Shown here: piece after piece, positions 12,140 to 21,483 of the stretch
Layout of the letters: each line of letters opens with the position of its first letter
Numbering within the stretch: position 1 is the first letter of the stretch
From: a virus
IMG/VR virus record: IMGVR_UViG_3300024289_000099
Coordinates: 1-23,167 of that record
Strand: one strand, 5' to 3'
DNA length: 23,167 bases
Notes under the pieces: generated by a model
Database searches by the model: none
Seen by the model: only the letters and a program-made list of their open reading frames with translations
What the model was told of the DNA's origin: nothing
Position numbers and translations under genes: made by a program

Positions 12140-12147
12140 TTATTTAG
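12140..12147 (-). promoter_or_regulatory. Candidate late-promoter box CTAAATAA for the giant structural gene
   Basis: The minus strand reads CTAAATAA at 12147-12140, 28 bases before ATG 12111. It resembles the T4 late box TATAAATA and the NATAAATA form described for cyanophages, though with CT in place of TAT. The same eight bases occur before the plus-strand gene at 12498. A transcript from it would have a short leader. The motif is short and AT-rich, so chance is possible. Confidence 0.4.
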
Positions 12148-12180
12148 CCTAAACTTTTATAAGCCTAATGTAAATACCAT

Positions 12181-12468
12181 ATGTACTTGGGAAAAGAAAC
12201 AGAATTAAATCAATATGTAAGAACCAGCAAGCTCGGTAATGAGCATGTTTATTATCGTCGAAAGACTCTGGCTATCTTCCGTTGTGATAACTGTGACGAA
12301 ATCTTTAAAAGAGATCTAAAAAAGATGCATAAGAAAAGATTGAGCAACAATTTTTTCCATTGCTGTTCGAAGTGTGACTCTAAACGTTTTGCGCAGAAAA
12401 AAGGAGTAGAACAGAAAAAGATATGGGATATGCCTGCCAGTACAGAACTTCCTGTGGCCAAGTATTGA
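12181..12468 (+). CDS. Small zinc-ribbon protein (95 aa), unknown role
   Basis: The product has 95 residues and opens MYLGKETEL. It has two CxxC knuckles, C35-x2-C38 (FRCDNCDEIF) and C62-x2-C65 (CCSKC), separated by a Lys/Arg-rich helix, so a zinc-ribbon fold is likely. The C-terminus has an IWDMPAS stretch. Similar small zinc-finger proteins are familiar from T4-like aquatic phages, where they lack a defined role; nucleic-acid binding is an inference. It is the first gene of the only plus-strand island, 69 bases from the divergent giant structural gene. No Shine-Dalgarno is visible before the ATG. No alternative start was found that keeps the YLGK opening. Confidence 0.75.
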   Translation: MYLGKETELNQYVRTSKLGNEHVYYRRKTLAIFRCDNCDEIFKRDLKKMHKKRLSNNFFHCCSKCDSKRFAQKKGVEQKKIWDMPASTELPVAKY

Positions 12469-12471
12469 CAA

Positions 12472-12479
12472 CTAAATAA
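12472..12479 (+). promoter_or_regulatory. Candidate late-promoter box CTAAATAA before the basic protein gene
   Basis: CTAAATAA lies 18 bases before ATG 12498, in the 29-base gap after the zinc-ribbon gene. It is identical to the eight bases before the giant structural gene on the other strand. A TTGACA at 12465-12470 just upstream has no matching -10 at 16-18 bases, so a sigma-70 reading is weaker. Confidence 0.35.
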
Positions 12480-12497: not shown

Positions 12498-12737
12498 ATG
12501 TTAAAGCTATTAGCCAAACTTTTTGGAGCCAAGAATACAGCACCAGCTGAGCCAGAGGCACCCTATAAAGTAGAAGCACCTGCTCCAGCACCAACGCCGG
12601 TCGCAGAACAGGCAGCTCAGGCTGTGGTAGAAAGCATTGCACCTGCCAAAAAGAAAGCACCTGCCAAAAAGACTGGTGCTCCTAAGCAAGGTGCTGCTAA
12701 AAAACCACGTAAGCCTAAATCAAAGCCCCAAGCGTAA
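12498..12737 (+). CDS. Lys/Ala/Pro-rich basic protein (79 aa), histone-H1-like composition
   Basis: The product has 79 residues, with AGGAG seven bases before the ATG. The first ~12 residues form a short amphipathic hydrophobic helix (MLKLLAKLFGAKN). A Glu/Pro/Ala linker follows (APAPAPTPVAEQAAQ), then a strongly basic tail of AKKK, PAKK and KKPRKPKSKP runs, much like the tails of histone H1 or bacterial AlgP/HU-like tails. DNA, RNA or polyanion binding is inferred from composition alone. The reading frame ends inside the 3' end of the convergent uvdE gene, an 18-base overlap of tails. It shares the plus-strand island with the zinc-ribbon gene. Confidence 0.7.
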   Translation: MLKLLAKLFGAKNTAPAEPEAPYKVEAPAPAPTPVAEQAAQAVVESIAPAKKKAPAKKTGAPKQGAAKKPRKPKSKPQA

Positions 12738-13745
12738 GGCTTGCTGATGTAGAGCAAAACTAGCTAGATTTTTAGCTTTGCTCTCACACATAATATCAAA
12801 GCTGTCTCGGAAACTCAGAGCCCATTCATTAACTGCTGTATTCCAGTAGAAGTTAGAGTGAGCTCTGAGTTTCGCTTTTTTGTAACCTTCGGAAAGTAGT
12901 TTGTGATAGTCGGGCAATGTTTGATCGCAATGATCTACGAGAACATCTTCACGACTAATAGAATAATGCATGACAGGCCTAACACCCCGCCAGCTCTCAA
13001 CCACCATTTGAACACGCGAGTCCATGGGTTGTATATATTCCCCGCTATGTACCCAATGGTGATGTACATCCATAACCACAGGAACGATATCGCTAATACT
13101 AAGGCAAGTTTCAAGTCCATGCGTCATTTCCTCATTTTCGATAGTGATAGTGTTACGTGCTTCGGGTGTTAAGCGGCCCAATACAGCACGTATTCCATCG
13201 GGGCCTCGTCGACCCGCGATATGAACGTTGATTTTAAAGTCCTGAAACGTTTGGCCAAATCCCATCCAGCGAGCCATGTCCACATGATATTCAAACTCCT
13301 CTATAGATCGGCTGACAATATCATCGTTATCACTTGCCAGCACAGTAAACTGACCAGGATGAAAACTGAGCCTAACACGATTCTTGCGAGCCAAATCACC
13401 GACGGCTCTGAAATGTCTTTCGGCGTAATCTCGCACATCGGGAGTCCGCCAAAACCAAGACCAGCTTGGCTCAGTGTACACAGGAAGTATATCGCTGCTG
13501 AGTCGTACCATTCTAAGATCTTCATCAAGTGCTCCTACACGTTCTACAAGAAGACGTGTGGACTCAATGTTTTGTTTCATGAGAGACCATAGTTTATCTA
13601 CAGCCACGTCCTTGGTTTGTCTATTTAACCAAGCTACGGTAGTAGTTCCGGTGTTGTAGATCTTGCACTCATCTTTAGGCTTAATGCCATCTACCTGATG
13701 AGGGTGATCGATCCATTTGCAAGCGAAGCCAATACGTTTAGTCAT
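12720..13745 (-). CDS. uvsE: UV damage endonuclease UvdE/UvsE family
   Basis: The product has 341 residues from ATG 13745; an in-frame TTG 36 bases upstream (13781) is less likely. UvdE enzymes nick DNA 5' to UV photoproducts and other lesions and start excision repair, using a metal-bearing TIM barrel. Family ligand motifs are visible: H129 in SFHPGQF, H175 in VHIAG, E203 in IENEE, D226 and H229 in MDVHHH, H260 in VMHYS and E321 in IMCESK. The set looks complete, so activity is expected. The length is near the family norm (about 300 residues or a little more). It is the last gene of the minus-strand run, 19 bases after the glycosyltransferase stop. It has no Shine-Dalgarno but a perfect sigma-70 promoter directly upstream. 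It probably repairs phage DNA damaged by sunlight. Confidence 0.93.
   Translation of the reverse strand: MTKRIGFACKWIDHPHQVDGIKPKDECKIYNTGTTTVAWLNRQTKDVAVDKLWSLMKQNIESTRLLVERVGALDEDLRMVRLSSDILPVYTEPSWSWFWRTPDVRDYAERHFRAVGDLARKNRVRLSFHPGQFTVLASDNDDIVSRSIEEFEYHVDMARWMGFGQTFQDFKINVHIAGRRGPDGIRAVLGRLTPEARNTITIENEEMTHGLETCLSISDIVPVVMDVHHHWVHSGEYIQPMDSRVQMVVESWRGVRPVMHYSISREDVLVDHCDQTLPDYHKLLSEGYKKAKLRAHSNFYWNTAVNEWALSFRDSFDIMCESKAKNLASFALHQQALRLGL
12751..12784. other. Imperfect inverted repeat at the convergent gene junction
   Basis: AGAGCAAA (12751-12758) pairs with TTTGCTCT (12777-12784). Inside it GCTA (12763-12766) pairs with TAGC (12773-12776), leaving a four-base bulge and a six-base loop. 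It begins 13 bases after the stop of the plus-strand basic gene and lies inside the uvdE 3' coding end. No T-run follows on the plus strand, so a classical intrinsic terminator is not supported. It may stabilise or process mRNA ends, or be chance. Confidence 0.35.
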
Positions 13746-13751
13746 AGTATT

Positions 13752-13781
13752 ATTATACAATAAATCAACGCCAGTTGTCAA
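13752..13781 (-). promoter_or_regulatory. Perfect-consensus sigma-70 promoter for uvdE
   Basis: The minus strand has TTGACA (13781-13776), an 18-base spacer and TATAAT (13757-13752). Both hexamers are perfect. The -35 lies in the last codons of the glycosyltransferase gene. The usual start point, about seven bases past the -10, falls on or beside the A of ATG 13745, so the mRNA would have no or almost no leader. Confidence 0.75.
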
Positions 13782-14451
13782 TGATGAAAGGATCCATTAC
13801 ATCTTCTGGTTTTGGATCTCCGTGGAATACTAATACGCTACATTGTGCAGGTATAGCGATGTCTTTTACTTCTTTGAATACACGTTTGGCGTTTATATAG
13901 ACTAGCTCTTCTTTGGTTCTTATTTCCCATTTATAGCTCATGATCCATTCTAATGGCCAATATTTGATATAAGACTTAGATATGCTGTAGATCCAATCTT
14001 GATCCCCGGGCATAGACAATGCTTCTCCGGGATTTTCTTTAAACTTTGCCCATATGATAGACTGTGATCCTTTAGTCCAACTCATTACTGAACTGTTTAA
14101 CACACACCAGTCCTTATGGAATGCTCGGTTGAAGTCTCTTATTCCATAAAAATCTTCGCCGCCAAGTAACTTTTCTATGTTACCACAGACTACAACATCG
14201 AGATCAAAATAAAGTATGCGGCCTTGTATGTCCAACGACGGATCGAACATATGAACTTTATGCCACCAACCTTTGGCATATCCGGCATTTGATTGCACTA
14301 TCAGTCTTACACCTTCGATGGGTTCGGGATCGTCCGTTAGGCAAACAAAATCGTAAGGTATCGTAATATGTCGAGAGACCATATTTCTCAATCTCTCGAC
14401 ATATTCTTTTCCGTATTTGTTTCCAAATCTAACGCAGAGTATAGTTACCAA
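13765..14451 (-). CDS. GT-A fold glycosyltransferase, GT8-like
   Basis: The product has 228 residues. The start is TTG 14451, because the conserved first strand (VTILCV) begins at once and no ATG lies upstream in frame; an AGGAG is ten bases before it. Motifs are FVCLTDD (35-41), the metal-binding DxD in ILYFDLDVVV (D83, D85), LNSSVMSW (118-125), GDQDWI (149-154) and FHGDPKP near the end (from 209). These fit GT8 and related nucleotide-sugar transferases, where DxD holds the metal and the sugar diphosphate. The acceptor is unknown: phage DNA, virion protein and host surface sugar are all possible. The start overlaps the stop of the small membrane gene by seven bases, and the coding end carries the -35 of the uvdE promoter. 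Confidence 0.8.
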   Translation of the reverse strand: MVTILCVRFGNKYGKEYVERLRNMVSRHITIPYDFVCLTDDPEPIEGVRLIVQSNAGYAKGWWHKVHMFDPSLDIQGRILYFDLDVVVCGNIEKLLGGEDFYGIRDFNRAFHKDWCVLNSSVMSWTKGSQSIIWAKFKENPGEALSMPGDQDWIYSISKSYIKYWPLEWIMSYKWEIRTKEELVYINAKRVFKEVKDIAIPAQCSVLVFHGDPKPEDVMDPFIIDNWR

Positions 14452-14603
14452 TGTCGTATCACTCCTGCTACAATAAAAATATTAGTGATAATGTAGATCA
14501 GGATGATTACAGTACGGACAAGTGCTATTTTATCAGCTTCCTGATCATTAGCACCTGCCTTTTCACCTAGGGCCTTTGCCCATAGTCTCCATATGTTACG
14601 CAT
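14445..14603 (-). CDS. Small single-span membrane protein (52 aa)
   Basis: The product has 52 residues from ATG 14603. It overlaps the QueD-like stop by eight bases upstream and the glycosyltransferase start by seven downstream, a packing that supports a real, coupled gene. The N-terminal half is soluble and charged (RLWAKALGEKAGANDQEADK). It is followed by one hydrophobic span, TVIILIYIITNIFIVAGVI (31-49), and a short RHW end. There is no cleavable signal site, so it is probably an inner-membrane anchor with the long side inside by the positive-inside rule. Similar short proteins are known to me from T4-like aquatic phages without a function. It might tether a neighbour to the membrane. Confidence 0.7.
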   Translation of the reverse strand: MRNIWRLWAKALGEKAGANDQEADKIALVRTVIILIYIITNIFIVAGVIRHW

Positions 14604-15138
14604 CACCCTCATAGATCGCTGAGTTTCCTGCGTGTTCGAAAACTTCTACACTTCTCAGTTTTACACCTTGTCCAACCGGATATCTGGCAGTGAAAGTATT
14701 TTTAGGTCCTTGAGTACCGTGCAGTATCCAATGATCACCTCTCTGAAAGGTCTTAAGAATATCATCCATGGTCTTGTATGCGAGTTCTGCAAACTTTTCA
14801 CAACCTACAGCTTCGACAACTCGTAGGTCACACATACCTCCTTGGTCCTGCAATCCATATGCCGCCATGCCTCGGAAAATATCTAGATAAGGGTCGTCTT
14901 GTGCGATAATCAGAGTATGATCAAACATATGTTCTGACCATTCTTTAAATGCTTTAAGACCGCCGAAGTCCATTACCCAGTTACGATCATCTAGTGTTTC
15001 TGATTCAAATATTAGTTTGATACCGATAGAATAACCGTGGAGCAATGAACAATGACTATGGGTGCTACGCCATTGTCTGAAACAACAACTGAGCCCTCTG
15101 TCGTTGCCGTATGTTTTAGTTGAAATATATTTCGCCAT
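14596..15138 (-). CDS. queD: QueD-like 6-carboxytetrahydropterin/6-pyruvoyltetrahydropterin synthase family protein
   Basis: The product has 180 residues. The start is ATG 15138, chosen because a perfect AGGAGG lies six bases before it; an in-frame GTG at 15180 is less likely. The PTPS/QueD fold turns dihydroneopterin triphosphate into pterin products, the first committed step to queuosine and other 7-deazaguanines. Visible motifs: C30-x3-HGY (30-36, usual form C-x3-HGH), W54-x2-DFGGLK (54-62), FDH (72-74), GCEKFAEL (112-119) and E167-x-HAGNSAIY. The third zinc His is Tyr here, and the upstream HRL-type His is shifted to H27 or H29, as I recall for a proteobacterial/phage subgroup. No other queuosine gene is in the window. 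It might feed preQ0 synthesis for DNA or tRNA modification. Confidence 0.82.
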   Translation of the reverse strand: MAKYISTKTYGNDRGLSCCFRQWRSTHSHCSLLHGYSIGIKLIFESETLDDRNWVMDFGGLKAFKEWSEHMFDHTLIIAQDDPYLDIFRGMAAYGLQDQGGMCDLRVVEAVGCEKFAELAYKTMDDILKTFQRGDHWILHGTQGPKNTFTARYPVGQGVKLRSVEVFEHAGNSAIYEGDA

Positions 15139-15189
15139 CTCTTGCCTCCTGTAAAAATAAGCGAGTAAGTTTGATGACACGCAGAGTAT

Positions 15190-15210
15190 TTAGAGAGGGG
15201 TGAGCGTCAT
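15190..15210 (-). CDS. Possible hexapeptide leader ORF upstream of queD
   Basis: In the ~95-base leader after the sigma-70 promoter, AGAGGA (15221-15216) stands five bases before ATG 15210. The reading frame is MTLTPL followed by TAA. The same AGAGG can pair with CCTCT at 15198-15194, which would hide the ribosome site of this short frame. It may be a regulatory leader peptide, a decoy or chance; coding status is uncertain. Confidence 0.2.
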   Translation of the reverse strand: MTLTPL

Positions 15211-15240
15211 TCGAGTCCTCTTTGTGTATGTGTGTTTATT

Positions 15241-15269
15241 AATATACTATTTTTAGTTACCTTTGTCAA
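15241..15269 (-). promoter_or_regulatory. Sigma-70 promoter for the queD operon
   Basis: The minus strand has TTGACA (15269-15264), a 17-base spacer and TATATT (15246-15241). This is a perfect -35 and spacing with five of six bases in the -10. The -35 lies in the last codons of the preceding 203-residue gene. The predicted leader to ATG 15138 is about 95 bases, unusually long for this window. A CTAAATAC at 15193-15186 inside the leader could be an additional late box. Confidence 0.65.
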
Positions 15270-15864
15270 CCACAAAATCATTTATGTTCTGGAAATGTAC
15301 ATGGTCATGTCGCCATTCTTCTGGTATTTTCCAACCTTCATTATTCAGTACTGTGAACTCTACGAACGGATTGATTTTGAAGATCATTCCTATTTGATAA
15401 ATCCAATATGCTGGATCGACTGCATCGGCAGTCTCTGGAAGATAATGTTGTGTGCCTTTGTAGATGTTATTGATTTTTCCATTAGATGGATACAAGTCAA
15501 AACCTGCTAATACTATTTTTGGAAATCCAAGTTCAGTAGCCAACAATACAGCATAAGGACCACTACCCCAATGCTCGGCACGATCTTGTTTTTGTGTGCC
15601 TACATATGGAATATTCGGAAGAGGTTTGAATATTTCAACACGATTGAGCGCGACCATGTTTTGTGGTCTAACAAATATCCCTACTCGATGTTGATTAATG
15701 CGACTAGCTTCTTGTGCCATACGGACATCGCAGCATACAACATAGTCCATTGGATGGTCGCGGACGATGGCATTACAACCGATCGTAGTGAAATGGTTTG
15801 AAAGATTTTCAATGTCAAGGCTTTTACGGCTCTCACCGTTGCCTAATACCAATGCTTGCAACAC
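15253..15864 (-). CDS. DUF115/GT42-like Rossmann-type protein, possible sugar transferase
   Basis: The product has 203 residues and starts at GTG 15864, directly after the stop of the upstream fibre gene. The N-terminus LVLGNGESRKSLDIENL (5-21) resembles the GNGPSLK-ID nucleotide-binding start of the GT42 sialyltransferases and the MptE/DUF115 proteins. The middle SGPYAVLLATELGFPKIVLAGFD resembles their SG-x-x-A...LGY-I-L-G-D segment, followed by NNIYKGTQHY with an HY pair near the place of the GT42 catalytic His. A transferase acting on sugars or on a pterin-like diphosphate is possible. The assignment rests on motif resemblance only. The abutting fibre gene suggests a link to virion protein or receptor modification. 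No membrane segment or signal peptide was seen. Confidence 0.6.
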   Translation of the reverse strand: MLQALVLGNGESRKSLDIENLSNHFTTIGCNAIVRDHPMDYVVCCDVRMAQEASRINQHRVGIFVRPQNMVALNRVEIFKPLPNIPYVGTQKQDRAEHWGSGPYAVLLATELGFPKIVLAGFDLYPSNGKINNIYKGTQHYLPETADAVDPAYWIYQIGMIFKINPFVEFTVLNNEGWKIPEEWRHDHVHFQNINDFVVDKGN

Positions 15865-16692
15865 TTATTTTATTTCGCCGAATGGTTTCCATTGTCCCGG
15901 AGTTCCGCCTTGCACACAGACCCAACCCATATAGGATCCTGTTGCAGGTTCCGAGTTCCATACGACATCTCCTCTATTGTATGTACCATCAATAGGGAAA
16001 GTGTTATCTTTAAAGTGAGCGACACCGTTGAATTTGATTGGCCCTGCAGCATCGAGGCTCATACGAGAATCGATATTATTAACACCGATACCTACAGCAC
16101 CATGTACTTTGACTTTTATAGGACCACTTTGTTTGTTTCCTAGATCGATATTTCCATTAGCACCAACAGTGATTCTTGTTTTGTTATCAGTGACTATGCT
16201 AAGATCACTGCTGTTATATGTTCCGATAAGGCCGTTAACAAAGTCTTGGCTTCCAATAACGATTTCTGTTTGACCGTCAGCTACTGTAAATGTAGCGTGG
16301 GGAGTTTCTGTTCCGATGCTAAGACTGTCTAGTCCTGCATTATAGAACATGTATTGGTTGACACTAAACGAACCGTCAACATCGAGATTTTTTAATCTAC
16401 CAACTTCTCGAAGATTACTCTTAACGACATTTTTACCTAGTCCGTTTTGATTTATAACTTCAATGCCGTTTATGTTTAGACTTTTACCTTCTGCTAGTTC
16501 TAGAGTTTCTGATAAAAATATTCTATCGGGATTGCTTCTAAACACTAACTGCTTATTGTAATCGTCTCTTAGCCAAAGTATACCTTTGTTTTCGATATCC
16601 TCAAACTCTATGAAGTCGTTGACTATTGTGGCCTTTGTCGAAACAAGGTCCTTGATTTGTTGTACTACTGAATCTACTTTATCGTTGGCCAT
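15865..16692 (-). CDS. Fibre-like structural protein B, tandem paralogue of the gene upstream
   Basis: The product has 275 residues from ATG 16692, one base after the upstream stop; an in-frame TTG at 16716 lies inside the previous gene and is less likely. It shares with its upstream neighbour the motifs NPDRIFLSETLEL, NVVKSNL with GRL, and a C-terminal GDVVWNSEP...GSYMGWVCVQGG-PGQWKPFG domain, a closing motif common in phage fibre and appendage proteins. The N-terminal ~35 residues are helical and could form a trimer coil. There is no enzymatic motif. A virion appendage or receptor-binding role is inferred from architecture and neighbours. Duplication followed by divergence best explains the pair. 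Confidence 0.78.
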   Translation of the reverse strand: MANDKVDSVVQQIKDLVSTKATIVNDFIEFEDIENKGILWLRDDYNKQLVFRSNPDRIFLSETLELAEGKSLNINGIEVINQNGLGKNVVKSNLREVGRLKNLDVDGSFSVNQYMFYNAGLDSLSIGTETPHATFTVADGQTEIVIGSQDFVNGLIGTYNSSDLSIVTDNKTRITVGANGNIDLGNKQSGPIKVKVHGAVGIGVNNIDSRMSLDAAGPIKFNGVAHFKDNTFPIDGTYNRGDVVWNSEPATGSYMGWVCVQGGTPGQWKPFGEIK

Positions 16693-16693
16693 A

Positions 16694-17488
16694 TTATTGA
16701 TTTCCAATCTTACCAAATGGTTCCCAACGTCCGGGATTTCCTGAGGTAATACATACCCAACCGACGTATGAACCTTCTCTAGGTTGTGTATTCCATATTA
16801 CATCACCTACACCATGTATACCTGACGTAGGCGGAGCATTATTATATCGATGTACTCTGCCTTCGTATTTTATAGCACCGGCAACATGAAGATCAACATC
16901 TGTATCCGGATTAGCGACTCCAACAGCTAGTTTTCCATTTACTATTACTTGTACTGGTTCTTCGTTTGGGCTACCGAAAGAGACGTTTCCTTTTTCATCT
17001 ATCAGTATTCGTGTTGTCGACAAAGTACCAATAGAAAGGGGACCTGAGCTCGTTCCAATGCGTCCAGGGTTTAAGTTTAGGTCTGCTCCTGATTCTTCTA
17101 AGGTTATGAATCCTTTAGGATCACTGGTTCCTAGACCTACTTTTTTATTAACATTATCAAAGTAAACAAACTGATCCAACACTACTGGACCGTCAACTAT
17201 TAGTCCAGTTAATCTTCCTAGCTGTTCTAGATTGCTTTTAACTACGTTATCGCCCAGCGAATCTGCAGATAACACTGGAGTGCCATTTATTGAGAAAACT
17301 TTATCTTTTCCTAGATCAAGGCTTTCTGTAGACAGAAAACGATCTGGGTTTACTGTGAATAAGAACTGTTTTGTAGGTCCGTCGCCGGCCCAAACAAAAC
17401 CTTTTCCGACGATATCTCCGTCGAAAGTTTTATGGTCAGTTAATAGCTCACGCAACGACTTCGCTAGGTCTTCCATTTGTTTAGACAT
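16694..17488 (-). CDS. Fibre-like structural protein A, tandem paralogue of the gene downstream
   Basis: The product has 264 residues from ATG 17488; TTG 17500 is in frame but weaker. A helical N-terminus (MSKQMEDLAKSLRELL) is followed by a beta-rich body with NPDRFLSTESLDL, NVVKSNLEQLGRLTGL and VDGPVVLDQFVYF. The C-terminal GDVIWNTQP-REGSYVGWVCITSG-PGRWEPFG is the same domain as in fibre B and typical of phage tail-fibre ends. It is first in a three-gene unit led by a candidate late box 24 bases before its ATG and separated from upstream genes by a strong terminator. It is probably a virion protein made late. Whether A and B form homo- or heterotrimers cannot be told. Confidence 0.78.
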   Translation of the reverse strand: MSKQMEDLAKSLRELLTDHKTFDGDIVGKGFVWAGDGPTKQFLFTVNPDRFLSTESLDLGKDKVFSINGTPVLSADSLGDNVVKSNLEQLGRLTGLIVDGPVVLDQFVYFDNVNKKVGLGTSDPKGFITLEESGADLNLNPGRIGTSSGPLSIGTLSTTRILIDEKGNVSFGSPNEEPVQVIVNGKLAVGVANPDTDVDLHVAGAIKYEGRVHRYNNAPPTSGIHGVGDVIWNTQPREGSYVGWVCITSGNPGRWEPFGKIGNQ

Positions 17489-17512
17489 ATTGGGTTCCAA
17501 ATACTTATTAGA

Positions 17513-17520
17513 TATTTATC
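17513..17520 (-). promoter_or_regulatory. Candidate late promoter GATAAATA for the fibre A/B unit
   Basis: The minus strand reads GATAAATA at 17520-17513, matching the T4 late box TATAAATA at seven of eight positions and the cyanophage NATAAATA form fully. It lies 24 bases before ATG 17488 and three bases after the U-tract of the preceding terminator. The position between a terminator and a virion gene strengthens the call. Confidence 0.55.
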
Positions 17521-17523
17521 CCC

Positions 17524-17554
17524 AAAAGAAAAAGCAGGCCGAAGCCTGCTTTTT
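17524..17554 (-). terminator. Rho-independent terminator with UUCG loop after the 402-aa gene
   Basis: On the minus strand GCAGGC, loop TTCG, GCCTGC form a perfect six-base-pair GC-rich stem (17549-17534), extendable by A-T pairs on both sides. TTTTTCTTTT follows (17533-17524). UUCG is an especially stable tetraloop. It begins 17 bases after the stop of the 402-residue gene. The flanking A-run means it may also work for plus-strand transcripts. Confidence 0.92.
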
Positions 17555-17571
17555 ACTGAGCCATTACTTTG

Positions 17572-18780
17572 TTATTGTACTTTAAGCAATACAGTATCTT
17601 CATTAATGCGCCCGTTGAGCTTGATATCTACTGCTTTAATGTCTTCTAAGAACTTACGCAGAGCTACTTTTCCTGAACTCTTAAACTCTTTAAGTTGTTC
17701 ATCGGGCTTGCGCAGAGTTTTTTGTACGCTCTTGTTCTCGTCAAACCCAATCAATGTAGTTCCTTTTACACGGATATCGTTGTAGGCAGCAGCCACATAC
17801 TTTCCTAGCTTACGAGTTTTGGTGTTATAGACCCACACTTCTTGTGATCCAATGATGTCCGCAGGATTGATAGACACTAGTTTGAGCTGGTCGTCGGTCT
17901 TTTTGTACTTCAACTTAGCAACAAGTTTGTCTTTGCTAACAGCTTTCTTAGCACGTGGTTTGCGATTGACTTTACCTTCTTGCTGTAGCATTTCGCAGGC
18001 ACTAAGGATTTCATGATAGAAATCGTAGAGCTTCTTGAGATTCTTTTTACCTAGCCAAGCATAACCTTCTTTAAGCTGATCGTCTTTGCCCTCGATAGCT
18101 TCTGCTACTTCGTCATGAGCACGTTGATACAAATCCTTAATAACTCGAGCATGTGCCCCTTTGCATTCGCGACCTTTGAGCAGATTAACGATCTTGATGG
18201 CTTTAGGATCAAAGCTATCCGGATCTAGTAAGAAGCTTTCGTGAGCATCTTCGATTTCTGTAGTCATAGCGTAGGCAGCTTCACGAAGTCGATCTTGGAT
18301 AGAAAGCACAACTCCAGTATCTTTTTTCTCAGTAACTTCTTCCTCTTCTTTGATAGTCTTACCACGTTCGATGGCGTCAGCGATACGTTCACGGAGAAAT
18401 ATAGTTACAGGTTTGAGCTCGCCCATGGTTCCGGGAAGTTCTTCCCAATGTTTGGCTTCTTTTTCGTTAAGATCGGGCATACCGGTGCGCAGACAACGAG
18501 CGATGATAGCAGCCTGCGTGAGGTTGAATCCGCCTGATTGTTTGATATATTTGATATCTTCTGCGCTATACTTGTTTTCTTTCATCCAAGCATAGACATC
18601 TGGCAGGAGATCTGCTGTTTTGTATTCAGCATAGTAATAGGCTACAGCATTACGACGGAAGCGATGATACTCCTCACCGGTCATCTTTTCCCAATCAGCC
18701 CACTTCGGATCAGGATTCGCACCGCGGCGAGTACCTGCCGAAACAGAAACTTTCTTGGGTTTTGCTTTAGTCACAGCCAT
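17572..18780 (-). CDS. Conserved phage protein of unknown function (402 aa)
   Basis: The product has 402 residues. ATG 18780 is preferred over GTG 18783 because AGGAG is six bases before the ATG. The N-terminus is basic (AKPKKVSVSAGTRRG). The body is highly charged and mainly helical, with an acidic patch KTIKEEEEVTEKK (~165-177). A basic linker (NRKPRAKKAVSKDK, ~292-305) leads to a C-terminal part with beta character (EVWVYNTKTRKLGKYVAAAYNDI, then GTTLIGFDENKSVQKTLRKP), a segment I recall in unknown proteins of T4-like aquatic phages. No catalytic motif was found. It has its own perfect sigma-70 promoter and its own terminator, so it is a single-gene unit, probably transcribed early by host polymerase. 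A nucleic-acid role is possible from the charge pattern but unproven. Confidence 0.85.
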   Translation of the reverse strand: MAVTKAKPKKVSVSAGTRRGANPDPKWADWEKMTGEEYHRFRRNAVAYYYAEYKTADLLPDVYAWMKENKYSAEDIKYIKQSGGFNLTQAAIIARCLRTGMPDLNEKEAKHWEELPGTMGELKPVTIFLRERIADAIERGKTIKEEEEVTEKKDTGVVLSIQDRLREAAYAMTTEIEDAHESFLLDPDSFDPKAIKIVNLLKGRECKGAHARVIKDLYQRAHDEVAEAIEGKDDQLKEGYAWLGKKNLKKLYDFYHEILSACEMLQQEGKVNRKPRAKKAVSKDKLVAKLKYKKTDDQLKLVSINPADIIGSQEVWVYNTKTRKLGKYVAAAYNDIRVKGTTLIGFDENKSVQKTLRKPDEQLKEFKSSGKVALRKFLEDIKAVDIKLNGRINEDTVLLKVQ

Positions 18781-18813
18781 CACATGCTCCTATGTAAGTT
18801 AAACAATACATAT

Positions 18814-18842
18814 ATTATACGGCCAAAAAAGAGATTTGTCAA
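18814..18842 (-). promoter_or_regulatory. Perfect-consensus sigma-70 promoter for the 402-aa gene
   Basis: The minus strand has TTGACA (18842-18837), an exact 17-base spacer and TATAAT (18819-18814), ideal in every respect. It starts three bases after the stop of the 62-residue gene. The predicted leader is about 27 bases and holds AGGAG. Confidence 0.9.
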
Positions 18843-18844
18843 CC

Positions 18845-19033
18845 TTATTCAAATCGTTCTACTTCGTCCAAATCGCCGTCTTCATTTTCTTTATATATGA
18901 TAGTTTGGATATAATCGGTTCCAATACTATCTTCGGCTAACTTAACCGCTTCTTTTCTACTGCTAGTCGTTTCGATCAACTCTTCGTGACCCCGTTCGTC
19001 GACTCCCCAAACTTCATAGAGTTCGAAGTTCAT
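18845..19033 (-). CDS. Small acidic protein of unknown function (62 aa)
   Basis: The product has 62 residues from ATG 19033, is acidic, and opens with NFELYEVWGVDERGHEEL, a beta-hairpin-like start followed by an EAVKLAED helix and a strand (YIQTIIYKEN). It ends DLDEVERFE. The shape (short alpha/beta, acidic) would suit a small inhibitor or adaptor, but no family was recognised. AGGAG is 13 bases upstream, longer than ideal. A closer ATG at 19044 would make only a four-codon frame that ends across this start. It is last of the seven-gene chain and lies 24 bases after the 182-residue gene. Confidence 0.65.
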   Translation of the reverse strand: MNFELYEVWGVDERGHEELIETTSSRKEAVKLAEDSIGTDYIQTIIYKENEDGDLDEVERFE

Positions 19034-19057
19034 TTTATTGCCATTTCTCCTATTAGG

Positions 19058-19606
19058 TTAAACAAACTTTTTCCAATCTCCATCAGGCGCAACTGCCCAA
19101 CCAAGACGTTGGAGATCATTCCGGATCTCGTCGGTTATGCACCCTTCTGCAACATAGTTTCTACCATCCCAAAGTTTGTTCTCTTCTTCATCATGTGATA
19201 CATCACGAATACCAGAACAATACCAATCGATATAATCACCTTTCTGTTGCATGTCGGCGATTATGCCACCAGCATATCGCCAAGAGCAACTCCATTCTTC
19301 TTGTTTGAGCACAGGTATAACTTCCAAACGGATAAAGCCATTGTTGCACATTGCCGCATATAAGTTTTGAGCGTAGGCATCATTGTTTCGAGCTTTCTCC
19401 AAAATCCAATCAGTAGTCACAAGATCGTACTCCAAATTGTTAATACGAGATTCTGGATCGTCAAACTTGCGGTTGTCATCATCTAGGATTTTTTGAAAGT
19501 AATCTAGATACGCTTCGTTAGGCTCTTCGCCTTTTTCTTCCATGCGTTTGATATAACCTTCTTTTTGGAAAGTATGTCTTTCAGGGCTTTTTGAAACCTT
19601 TGACAT
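19058..19606 (-). CDS. Conserved phage protein of unknown function (182 aa)
   Basis: The product has 182 residues from ATG 19606, overlapping the end of the previous gene by 26 bases. The N-terminal third is charged and helical (ERHTFQKEGYIKRMEEKGEEP). The centre has TTDWILEKARNNDAYAQNLYAAM and NGFIRLEVIPVLKQEEWSCSW. It is followed by RYAGGIIADMQQKGDYIDWY with a Cys, a pattern I recall from unknown proteins of aquatic T4-like phages. It ends GWAVAPDGDWKKFV. It is rich in Trp, Tyr and Asp. No catalytic motif was found. It is probably expressed from the sigma-70 promoter at 21483. Confidence 0.8.
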   Translation of the reverse strand: MSKVSKSPERHTFQKEGYIKRMEEKGEEPNEAYLDYFQKILDDDNRKFDDPESRINNLEYDLVTTDWILEKARNNDAYAQNLYAAMCNNGFIRLEVIPVLKQEEWSCSWRYAGGIIADMQQKGDYIDWYCSGIRDVSHDEEENKLWDGRNYVAEGCITDEIRNDLQRLGWAVAPDGDWKKFV

Positions 19607-19994
19607 CTTCTACGGCTTTCTTAAGAGTTTCTGCATAGTTAAGAGCTTGTTGCTCAGTCATAGCGATAGTAGTTTCACACTGCACGTATCCTTTAGTCCA
19701 GATTCTCCATGTAAGGCGAAGTCTAGTTACAAGGCCATTCCAGAGATCTTTCCAGAACCAATCAAACTCTTGTTGCCAAGGACTATCGATATCATAACGC
19801 TTTTTAACTGATTCAGTCCAATAATCAGTCTTAGCGGTAACATAGGTGTTGACATTGACACCGGTTTCGTCTGCTTCTACTTCTACAGTTAGAGAATGAT
19901 CGGGCTGACCACAGCCACAGACGACGCTGTACCATTTTGAATCACCCCAATCGTGGGTTTTCAAGATTCCTTCTGCTGGTTCTTGTGCTTTCAT
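19581..19994 (-). CDS. Conserved phage protein of unknown function (137 aa)
   Basis: The product has 137 residues from ATG 19994, with an ATGA overlap with the previous stop. It opens with an acidic stretch, then VCGCGQPDHSLTVEVEADE (~25-43), a C-x-C...H cluster that could bind a metal. A Trp-rich segment follows (WQQEFDWFWKDLWNGLV), then RLTWRIWTKGYVQCETTIAM and a C-terminal helix (EQQALNYAETLKKAVEDV). I recall this pattern (CGCG-PDH, TKGYV, QALNYA-L) from unknown proteins of cyanophage-like phages. The compact size and aromatic content suggest a host-takeover or adaptor protein, but this is conjecture. Confidence 0.8.
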   Translation of the reverse strand: MKAQEPAEGILKTHDWGDSKWYSVVCGCGQPDHSLTVEVEADETGVNVNTYVTAKTDYWTESVKKRYDIDSPWQQEFDWFWKDLWNGLVTRLRLTWRIWTKGYVQCETTIAMTEQQALNYAETLKKAVEDVKGFKKP

Positions 19995-20239
19995 TGTAGT
20001 GTCCTATCGTTGCCTTTACCAAAGGCACGAACTAATCTTTCTCTATCATCGTCATCCATCTCGTCGAAATCTTCTTCGGTTAAAGGACGACCGATGCTTT
20101 CTAGTTCTTCTTTGGTCTTACCTTCAAACATATTTTTGATTTCGTTTATGAACTCATCGAGTTCTTCTTGTGTCCCCTCGAATCCGTCGAAAGCACCTGG
20201 TGCAAACTCGACTTTCAGGATTTTCTTTTCTTCAGTCAT
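19991..20239 (-). CDS. Small acidic protein of unknown function (82 aa)
   Basis: The product has 82 residues from ATG 20239, directly after the previous stop (TAA then ATG). It is strongly acidic, with EELDEFINEIKNMFEGKTKEEL and an EEDFDEMDDDDRERLV patch near residue 60. Two or three short helices are likely. The stop overlaps the next ATG (ATGA). Acidic small phage proteins can mimic DNA or bind basic host factors, but nothing here shows it. Confidence 0.7.
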   Translation of the reverse strand: MTEEKKILKVEFAPGAFDGFEGTQEELDEFINEIKNMFEGKTKEELESIGRPLTEEDFDEMDDDDRERLVRAFGKGNDRTLQ

Positions 20240-20458
20240 TTATGCTTCTATCCTTTTAACTTTGTCACGCGAGTCGTAGATTGATTTAACCATGCGTTGG
20301 TATTCATCTTCGTCCAAGATTGTCCGGTAGTATGTAAGTCCTTGCGTAACCATAATGGCTGCTACTTCTAATGGGCTATGATCTTCCATCATGAGAGTAT
20401 TAAAAGACATAAACTTCTCATAAAGACTTTCTAGACTACCATCGCGTTCTGTCAGCAT
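20240..20458 (-). CDS. Small protein of unknown function (72 aa)
   Basis: The product has 72 residues from ATG 20458. This start is preferred to the longer frame open to 20551 because AAAGGA stands six bases before it and it overlaps the upstream gene by only 23 bases. It is helical: ESLYEKFMSFNTLMMEDHSP, then LEVAAIMVTQGLTYYRTIL, then a charged C-terminal helix (DEDEYQRMVKSIYDSRD). Such helix-only proteins of about 70 residues are common in phage early regions. No family is recognised with confidence. Confidence 0.7.
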   Translation of the reverse strand: MLTERDGSLESLYEKFMSFNTLMMEDHSPLEVAAIMVTQGLTYYRTILDEDEYQRMVKSIYDSRDKVKRIEA

Positions 20459-20621
20459 TGTTGTTCCTTTGATGTTTGTATTCTCTCTTGAGCCACCATT
20501 TAAACTTCTGGAAATATTCTTCATATGTGTATTTAGGTATCCTGGATTCAAAATGCTCGTCGCAGTTATCTAACCAAAGGTTTCTAACCCAGTTCCTAAA
20601 TGGTGAAGATTTCATGTCCAT
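20436..20621 (-). CDS. Small Trp-rich phage protein of unknown function (61 aa)
   Basis: The product has 61 residues from ATG 20621; ATG 20615 would give 59. It overlaps the previous gene by ten bases. The motif SPFRNWVRNLWLDNCDEH followed by YTYEEYFQKFKWWLKREY is familiar from short unknown proteins of T4-like aquatic phages, which supports reality despite the lack of a clear Shine-Dalgarno. It has one Cys, many aromatic residues and a basic tail. The function is unknown. It is coupled by overlap on both sides within the chain. Confidence 0.7.
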   Translation of the reverse strand: MDMKSSPFRNWVRNLWLDNCDEHFESRIPKYTYEEYFQKFKWWLKREYKHQRNNNADRTRW

Positions 20622-21427
20622 AGTGATTGACGTATTTTAATAAGACGAATCATCATTTCTTCGTCTTCGTTCTCATATTGTAGTTCCAGTTTGTTGATTG
20701 TGTCAAGAGCTTTTCGTGATTCGGTTTTTTCTTTTTTAGTTTCGTCTTCTGGAAATATTTCGTCTGGATACTGTTTACGGCGACGTTCGCAGATATCATG
20801 CCAACCAGAAACTTCATAAGGATCCGGACGCTTTGGGCGTTCGTACTTCCACCACTTATAAAGGATTTCGATTTCCTTAGCAGCTTCTGCCTGTGCAGTA
20901 GGTACAGCTTCGTGCTTCTTATCCTCGTCCAAAAACTCTGCATTGGTCAGGGTTTTAGCCCAAGCACAGTAGGCCATAGCGGCTTCTTCCGAACGCCAGT
21001 TACGATACCATCGGCGCCACCAAGGATAGCTATACTTCTTGCGAGCTTCGCTGTCCCATACACAGTAGTTCCATGCTAGTTCCACTTCAACAAAATCAAC
21101 CAGCTCATTGAATAAGCAAGGCAAAAAGCGGTTCCCCACGTCTTGCCAGCTGCCAGGTTTAATATCCCTGGGATGAGCGGTAAGAGCATGAGTGCGAGTA
21201 ACAAAGCGGTTGTTAATGTAGTATCGAACATCGTTAATCCTATCAGGAATCCACATCCAAACGTCCTGGATGTAGTCAAGCCCTTCCTCTGCTAACCAAT
21301 AGCGGAAAGGGTGTTTTTCTTTGGAGGCACGTTTCCACTGAGCCCATCCTTTAGATGTCTCAGCTGTAGGTTTATTTGAACCACGCAACCAATCTGCGAA
21401 TCGTGAACAAGTCCAATAGTTTCTCAT
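20612..21427 (-). CDS. Conserved Trp-rich phage protein of unknown function (271 aa)
   Basis: The product has 271 residues from ATG 21427. It opens MRNYWTCSRFADWLRG, then KHPFRYWLAEEGLDYIQDVW, an RINDVRYYINNRFV-x-RTHAL stretch (~63-82) and FNELVDFVEVELAW. After a Trp/Arg-rich block (PWWRRWYRNWRSEEAAMAY, ~135-153) comes LYKWWKYERPKRPDPYEVSGW (~188-208), and the end is a charged helix. The pattern is one I recall for an unknown protein widespread in cyanophage/pelagiphage-type myoviruses. The very high Trp content is notable. No enzyme motif was found. It is the first gene after the promoter at 21483 and heads the seven-gene chain. Confidence 0.85.
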   Translation of the reverse strand: MRNYWTCSRFADWLRGSNKPTAETSKGWAQWKRASKEKHPFRYWLAEEGLDYIQDVWMWIPDRINDVRYYINNRFVTRTHALTAHPRDIKPGSWQDVGNRFLPCLFNELVDFVEVELAWNYCVWDSEARKKYSYPWWRRWYRNWRSEEAAMAYCAWAKTLTNAEFLDEDKKHEAVPTAQAEAAKEIEILYKWWKYERPKRPDPYEVSGWHDICERRRKQYPDEIFPEDETKKEKTESRKALDTINKLELQYENEDEEMMIRLIKIRQSLWT

Positions 21428-21454
21428 AGTCTTTTCTCTTAGCTGAACAACTTA

Positions 21455-21483
21455 ATTATATGATAAAACAAAAAACTTGTCAA
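21455..21483 (-). promoter_or_regulatory. Perfect-consensus sigma-70 promoter for the seven-gene chain
   Basis: The minus strand has TTGACA (21483-21478), an exact 17-base T-rich spacer and TATAAT (21460-21455). It lies in the 73-base gap after the 128-residue gene. The predicted leader is about 20 bases and has only a weak purine-rich ribosome site (AAGAGAAAAG). Confidence 0.9.

Follow-up and report, generated by a model that had tools for sequence, protein, structure and literature searches.

T4 and T4-like phages use host sigma70 early promoters and gp55-dependent late promoters of the type TATAAATA (PMC1524935), and the T4 late box occupies positions -13 to -6 (PMC1524935). Leaderless initiation was first found in phage lambda (PMC3160421). 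Both promoter types also occur in the phage described here, with a gp55-like protein in its relatives; the phage is represented by positions 1 to 23,167 of the IMG/VR virus record IMGVR_UViG_3300024289_000099 (this whole stretch of 23,167 nucleotides is called the window below). Host-sigma70 promoters beside T4-like late boxes are an already known kind of feature. What appears to be new is a distinct leaderless spacing class, predicted for both the early and the late promoters of a phage clade.

The window is a 23-kb piece of a jumbo phage. A 53.6 kb IMG/VR contig carries 100% identical proteins, and relatives are present in IMG/VR on contigs of up to 383 kb. The gene content of the window includes thyX, queD, uvdE, a glycosyltransferase gene and very large tail-fibre genes. 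Promoter statistics were obtained from eight relatives with 2.08 Mb in total, several of which may be incomplete contigs. Genes were called by a simple longest-open reading frame (ORF) rule. Motifs, enrichment, conservation, spacing and start codon usage were read directly from the sequence.

Sigma70 promoters of the window

The first-pass annotation had described four near-ideal sigma-70 promoters at gene starts on one strand. All four were confirmed, each ahead of the gene it had been assigned to and on the minus strand; three are perfect and one has TATATT (distances in nucleotides, nt; protein lengths in amino acids, aa):

21455..21483, minus strand: sigma70 promoter 1, TTGACA-17-TATAAT, 27 nt upstream of a 271-aa gene (ATG at 21427)
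21427 down to 18845, minus strand: seven-gene chain headed by the 271-aa gene
18814..18842, minus strand: sigma70 promoter 2, TTGACA-17-TATAAT, 33 nt upstream of a 402-aa gene (ATG at 18780)
15241..15269, minus strand: sigma70 promoter 3, TTGACA-17-TATATT, precedes the queD leader
13752..13781, minus strand: sigma70 promoter 4, TTGACA-18-TATAAT, precedes uvdE

The four sites appear to be of different types: two would be ordinary promoters about 30 nt before the ATG, one (uvdE) would be leaderless, and one (queD) would produce a long structured leader. The 402-aa gene belongs to phrog_11903, and its leader contains a Shine-Dalgarno (SD) sequence (AGGAG).

A scan of the whole window on both strands bore out the expected excess over shuffled sequence. 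Three perfect sites were found versus 0.03 per shuffled window, and 0 of 100 shuffles reached three. No perfect TTGACA/TATAAT site is present on the plus strand, and the reversed pattern is absent from the window. A looser scan, with 9/12 matches, gave 50 sites versus 45 ± 7 in shuffles, which is not above chance; only the near-perfect class therefore exceeds chance. A fifth strong site, TTGACA-18-TACAAT (20706-20677, minus strand), is located inside the 271-aa gene and is also present in L025 and L037. It overlaps conserved codons, and a promoter role is inseparable from codon conservation.

The eight relatives contain 163 perfect sites versus about 2.8 in Markov-simulated sequence, an enrichment of about 60-fold. 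In a set of 14 records, which includes near-duplicates, 112 perfect sites were counted versus 5 reversed-pattern matches. Promoter 1 is kept with diverged spacers before the orthologues in L025, L026, L031, L036 and L037. Promoter 2 is kept in L006-L013; the L006 group has a different upstream gene and an entirely different sequence, with TTGACA-17-TATAAT still in place. Dense same-strand arrays of perfect sites among small genes occur in the relatives G001 and G018, as would be expected of immediate-early regions. One apparent immediate-early array, in G018 (G018:C1:87231-97762), packs 18 perfect sigma70 promoters, all in the same orientation, into 10.5 kb of small genes.

The four sites of the window are probably host-sigma70 promoters with presumably early timing. 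Selection for strong host-polymerase promoters, as had been proposed, is well supported by the enrichment, the scarcity of reversed-pattern matches and the kept sites, and also by the negative search for multisubunit RNA polymerase and the separate gp55/TAAATA late system described below. Other phages nevertheless carry perfect promoters as well, with 31 in RaK2, 11 in PA5oct and 8 in P-SSM2 (comparable density in RaK2, lower in the other two). Perfect TTGACA-N16-18-TATAAT sites were found neither in T4, Cr30 and phiKZ nor in two uvdE-bearing Dickeya/Erwinia jumbo phages.

Two distances between promoter and start codon

For 201 sites of the form TTGAC[AT]-N16-18-TATAAT in the eight relatives, the gap between the -10 element and the ATG was determined, counting ORFs of 60 aa or longer. 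The distribution is bimodal: the main peak lies at 29-32 nt, and a second, distinct one covers 5-7 nt (6, 16 and 7 sites, i.e., 29 of 201). The range of 8-19 nt is nearly empty (6 sites among 201), and the Poisson probability of the near peak is about 3e-27. The near peak is confined to ATG (29 sites, versus 0 for GTG and 3 for TTG). The near peak depends on the -35 element, as TATAAT with a poor -35 yields no such peak. SD-like motifs precede 2 of 45 near-class genes versus about 41% of genes overall, a low frequency that is partly explained by the promoter occupying the SD window. Downstream of the -10 element, leadered promoters have a pyrimidine as the sixth base and A/T as the seventh. 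This pattern fits a transcription start (+1) on the seventh base, and in the near class that base is the A of the ATG. The natural reading of the near class is a leaderless mRNA with +1 on the A of the AUG. About one in five comparable promoters in the relatives would be placed so that the message should begin at the start codon.

The clearest candidate for a leaderless gene is uvdE, the mRNA of which is predicted to lack a leader. The genes of this locus are:

12720..13745, minus strand: uvdE, UV-damage endonuclease, 341 aa (PF03851, E 7e-37), ATG at 13745
13765..14451, minus strand: glycosyltransferase gene (phrog_1962, E 1e-27), the 3' end of which holds the uvdE -35

The -10 element of promoter 4 ends 6 nt before the uvdE ATG. 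The site is located at a gene start, as had been stated, but it is not intergenic: the -35 falls in the final codons of the glycosyltransferase gene upstream. Out of 59 distinct uvdE upstream regions, 33 have a promoter with at least 10/12 matches and a gap of 5-6 nt, all with ATG. The other regions score at most 7 and none scores 8-9, so that the two groups are cleanly separate. In 29 of the 33 near-class regions the -35 is encoded in the last codons of the glycosyltransferase (...D-N-W), and four regions (L073, L074, L083, L087) have an unrelated upstream gene with the same promoter geometry. Where the uvdE frame is N-terminally extended (L069, L058, L085, L102), the added in-frame ATG is again 5-6 nt from the -10 element. 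A minority of regions, of the L116 type, has a 28-nt leader. The start assigned to UvdE agrees with the N-terminus of an Erwinia phage homologue, MRFGFACK.

The spacing classes are also kept between orthologues. Among reciprocal best pairs of the relatives, mostly with less than 60% protein identity, both members were early-leaderless in 38 pairs versus 2.8 expected, and both late-leaderless in 63 versus 7.6 expected. An assigned leaderless start also matches a known N-terminus, as a DnaJ domain begins at residue 3. The layouts with 6 and 12 nt were compared across IMG/VR by open-frame fractions. Among the matches listed, an ORF of at least 60 aa was opened by 65% of the ATGs located 6 nt after a perfect promoter, by 22% of those at 12 nt, and by 19% of any ATGs; these values indicate that the 6-nt layout extends beyond the clade of the relatives.

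Late boxes of the gp55-dependent type TATAAATA show a comparable pattern. Of 2050 genes, 488 have TAAATA in the 100 nt ahead of them; the coding control gives 31. Its distance to the ATG in the relatives has a peak at 4-5 nt and a second peak at about 18-29 nt, whereas T4, RaK2, PA5oct and P-SSM2 have essentially the leadered peak alone. Given the position of the T4 late box, a gap of 5 nt puts +1 on the A of the AUG. Genes with the late-leaderless layout include those for virion structural and tail-tube proteins. The window contains both kinds of late box, and the AAATA-type boxes ascribed to the fibre genes were found there (TAAATA at 17518 and 12146, minus strand):

17513..17518, minus strand: late box TAAATA, 24 nt upstream of a fibre-like gene (ATG at 17488)
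12141..12146, minus strand: late box TAAATA of the 2856-aa fibre gene, 29 nt upstream of its ATG
12170..12176, plus strand: late box GTAAATA, ends 4 nt before a 95-aa ORF (ATG at 12181), the late mRNA of which is predicted to be leaderless
12473..12478, plus strand: late box TAAATA, 19 nt before the SD-led ATG (12498) of a 79-aa gene
17528..17554, minus strand: strong intrinsic terminator (hairpin GCAGGC-TTCG-GCCTGC-TTTTT) that separates the late fibre unit from the 402-aa gene; partial Rfam hairpin match

Across about 60 loci, with protein identities as low as about 45%, the box of the 95-aa ORF and its gap of 3-5 nt are conserved. Positions 12141-12176 of the window hold divergent late boxes, one for the 2856-aa fibre gene (minus strand) and one for the 95-aa ORF (plus strand), and the block of about 30 nt between them is strongly conserved. 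TAAATA at 20535 was rejected as a leaderless late box, as the SD-like-led start of that gene is located further on.

Pseudoknot in the queD leader

Promoter 3 is followed by a conserved RNA element and by queD:

15175..15221, minus strand: conserved RNA of the queD leader, an H-type pseudoknot with P1 AGAGG/CCTCT and P2 TGACGC/GTGTCA
14596..15138, minus strand: queD, 6-pyruvoyl-tetrahydropterin synthase family (PF01242 and phrog_2389), SD AGGAGG

The 47-nt element was found in 151 distinct places (e.g., L012:17061, L083:3659, L210:6643). Of the copies with a downstream ORF, 144 of 149 directly precede a queD-like gene. Base pairs were counted by script on anchored segments, as MAFFT misaligned the 5' arm of P1. 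Position 3 of P1 covaries with zero mismatch (C-G 44, A-U 32, U-A 16; n=92), and position 5 of P2 is A-U, C-G, G-U or U-A in 89 of 92. In a smaller set, 311 of 330 pseudoknot pairs form versus a shuffle maximum of 277. Elements resembling a -10 are located 6-24 nt before the conserved RNA in the relatives. TAAATA at 15192 was considered as a late promoter of queD and rejected, as it is part of the conserved pseudoknot. Upstream of the queD leader, positions 3548-3607 of L052 and the same stretch in L050, L058, L093 and L012 carry a late-type TATAAATA box within the sigma70 spacer, beside TATAAT, an arrangement that resembles a composite early/late promoter.

Rfam contains no family for this RNA, and a search of the region for known riboswitches and small RNAs gave chance or terminator-hairpin matches alone. 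A search of 171 nt with the preQ1-I model RF00522 gave no match up to an E value of 10, and there was none in 13 relatives either. The preQ1-I riboswitches (RF00522; type III in PMC10622847) are likewise small H-type pseudoknots with an A-rich 3' strand and are associated with queuosine-pathway genes. The queD-leader RNA differs in its six-pair P2, its conserved TCTGC junction and the lack of an Rfam match. It is a riboswitch candidate new to Rfam, for which a preQ0/preQ1-type sensor would be the natural guess.

Interpretation and comparison with described phages

The explanation that is considered likely, with good confidence, is that this T4-related jumbo phage possesses host-sigma70 promoters together with a gp55-like/TAAATA late system, and that both are used in leadered and leaderless modes. 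Start sites, early timing, leaderless translation and ligand sensing are predicted in this scheme. The phage would transcribe its genes with the host RNA polymerase, and its own gp55-like sigma and the TAAATA boxes would serve the late genes. In the leadered mode, the promoter would precede the AUG by about 30 nt if early and by 15-30 nt if late; in the leaderless mode, the A of the AUG would be +1 and the mRNA would be translated from its 5'-terminal AUG. The gene uvdE would be early leaderless, and the 271-aa and 402-aa genes leadered early. The queD promoter would give rise to a long structured leader, probably sensing a queuosine-pathway metabolite.

Ordinary host-sigma70 early promoters alone would suffice if the 6-nt gap at uvdE were due to chance or packing and uvdE translation were coupled to the glycosyltransferase on a read-through mRNA. 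The glycosyltransferase stop is indeed located 19 nt before the uvdE ATG, and the glycosyltransferase gene overlaps the promoter; this explanation is nevertheless rather improbable in view of the genome-wide bimodal spacing, which is ATG-only and -35-dependent, and of the geometry kept at uvdE behind the unrelated genes of L073, L074, L083 and L087. The sites might otherwise be read by a phage RNA polymerase or sigma sharing the sigma70 consensus, and be middle or late instead of early. Early timing is a prediction, and a sigma-like protein is present: seven of nine relatives have a gp55-like late sigma ORF, with E values of about 1e-6 to 1e-7. The gp55-type promoters, however, have their own TAAATA box, and perfect TTGACA-17-TATAAT is the housekeeping sigma consensus. 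Multisubunit RNA polymerase (PF00562) gave no match in nine relatives, some on perhaps incomplete contigs, in a search in which phiKZ scored and single-subunit RNA polymerase was not included. A phage polymerase or sigma reading these sites is judged very unlikely. That AT-rich phage DNA yields the hexamer pairs by chance agrees with the weak promoter-like sites, which are no commoner than in shuffles; for the near-perfect class a compositional artefact is refuted and of negligible probability, given 3 sites versus 0.03 in the window, 163 versus about 3 in the relatives, and the conserved positions.

Several points weigh against the explanation by host-sigma70 and gp55-like promoters with two modes. 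The gp55 matches are weak, at the E values given, and the PF00562 negative covers multisubunit enzymes alone, in relatives several of which may be incomplete contigs. Start sites are predicted from sequence, with a possible error of a few nt, and transcripts reading through from promoters further upstream might provide leadered mRNA as well. Conserved codons coincide with the uvdE -35, so that selection on the protein may account for part of its conservation. Pairs of orthologues do not represent separate events, and their number is raised by relatedness. Leaderless translation would presuppose a host capable of it. The phage bS21 was rejected as a pointer to the host: its matches are spread over Myxococcota, Deltaproteobacteria, Latescibacterota and Zixiibacteriota, and no host call was made. 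This ribosomal protein (PF01165), which is tied to translation initiation, is encoded in G001, G003, G004, G005, G015, G018 and PA5oct.

Accounts of leaderless phage mRNAs usually cite individual examples. In the present clade such mRNAs would form a distinct group in both promoter classes that is kept at orthologues, and thus a testable case of a virus sorting genes between two translation-start modes. For gene finding, the correct start codon in these phages could be read from the promoter. The queD leader is a separate phage riboswitch candidate.

A wider reading is tentative and somewhat doubtful: the environmental jumbo-phage clade may have a dual translation regime, in which a kept set of early and late genes is expressed from leaderless AUG-start mRNAs by a ribosome route unlike that of SD-led genes, possibly helped by the phage bS21 (six relatives). 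The set might comprise, as an equally speculative assignment, early genes for DNA repair, primase, DnaJ, exonuclease and nucleotidyltransferase, and late genes for virion and tail-tube proteins.

T4 differs from the phage described here in its GTTTAC -35 and in the absence of perfect TTGACA-N16-18-TATAAT, and its leaderless class by the same test is 0 early and 0 late. The jumbo phages RaK2 and PA5oct likewise have perfect sigma70 promoters and TAAATA boxes without a PF00562 match, and PA5oct has the family of the 402-aa gene in common with the window phage. They differ in having no leaderless class or almost none (RaK2 0 early, 2 late; PA5oct 1 early, 3 late). The leaderless genes of Deinococcus-Thermus (PMC12340547) likewise have a -10 element a few nt before the ATG, no leader and an AUG start. 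Leaderless initiation is a genome-wide bacterial trait in Deinococcus-Thermus and concerns a single gene in lambda, whereas here it would be a recurring phage class with a full -35 and with both early and late types.

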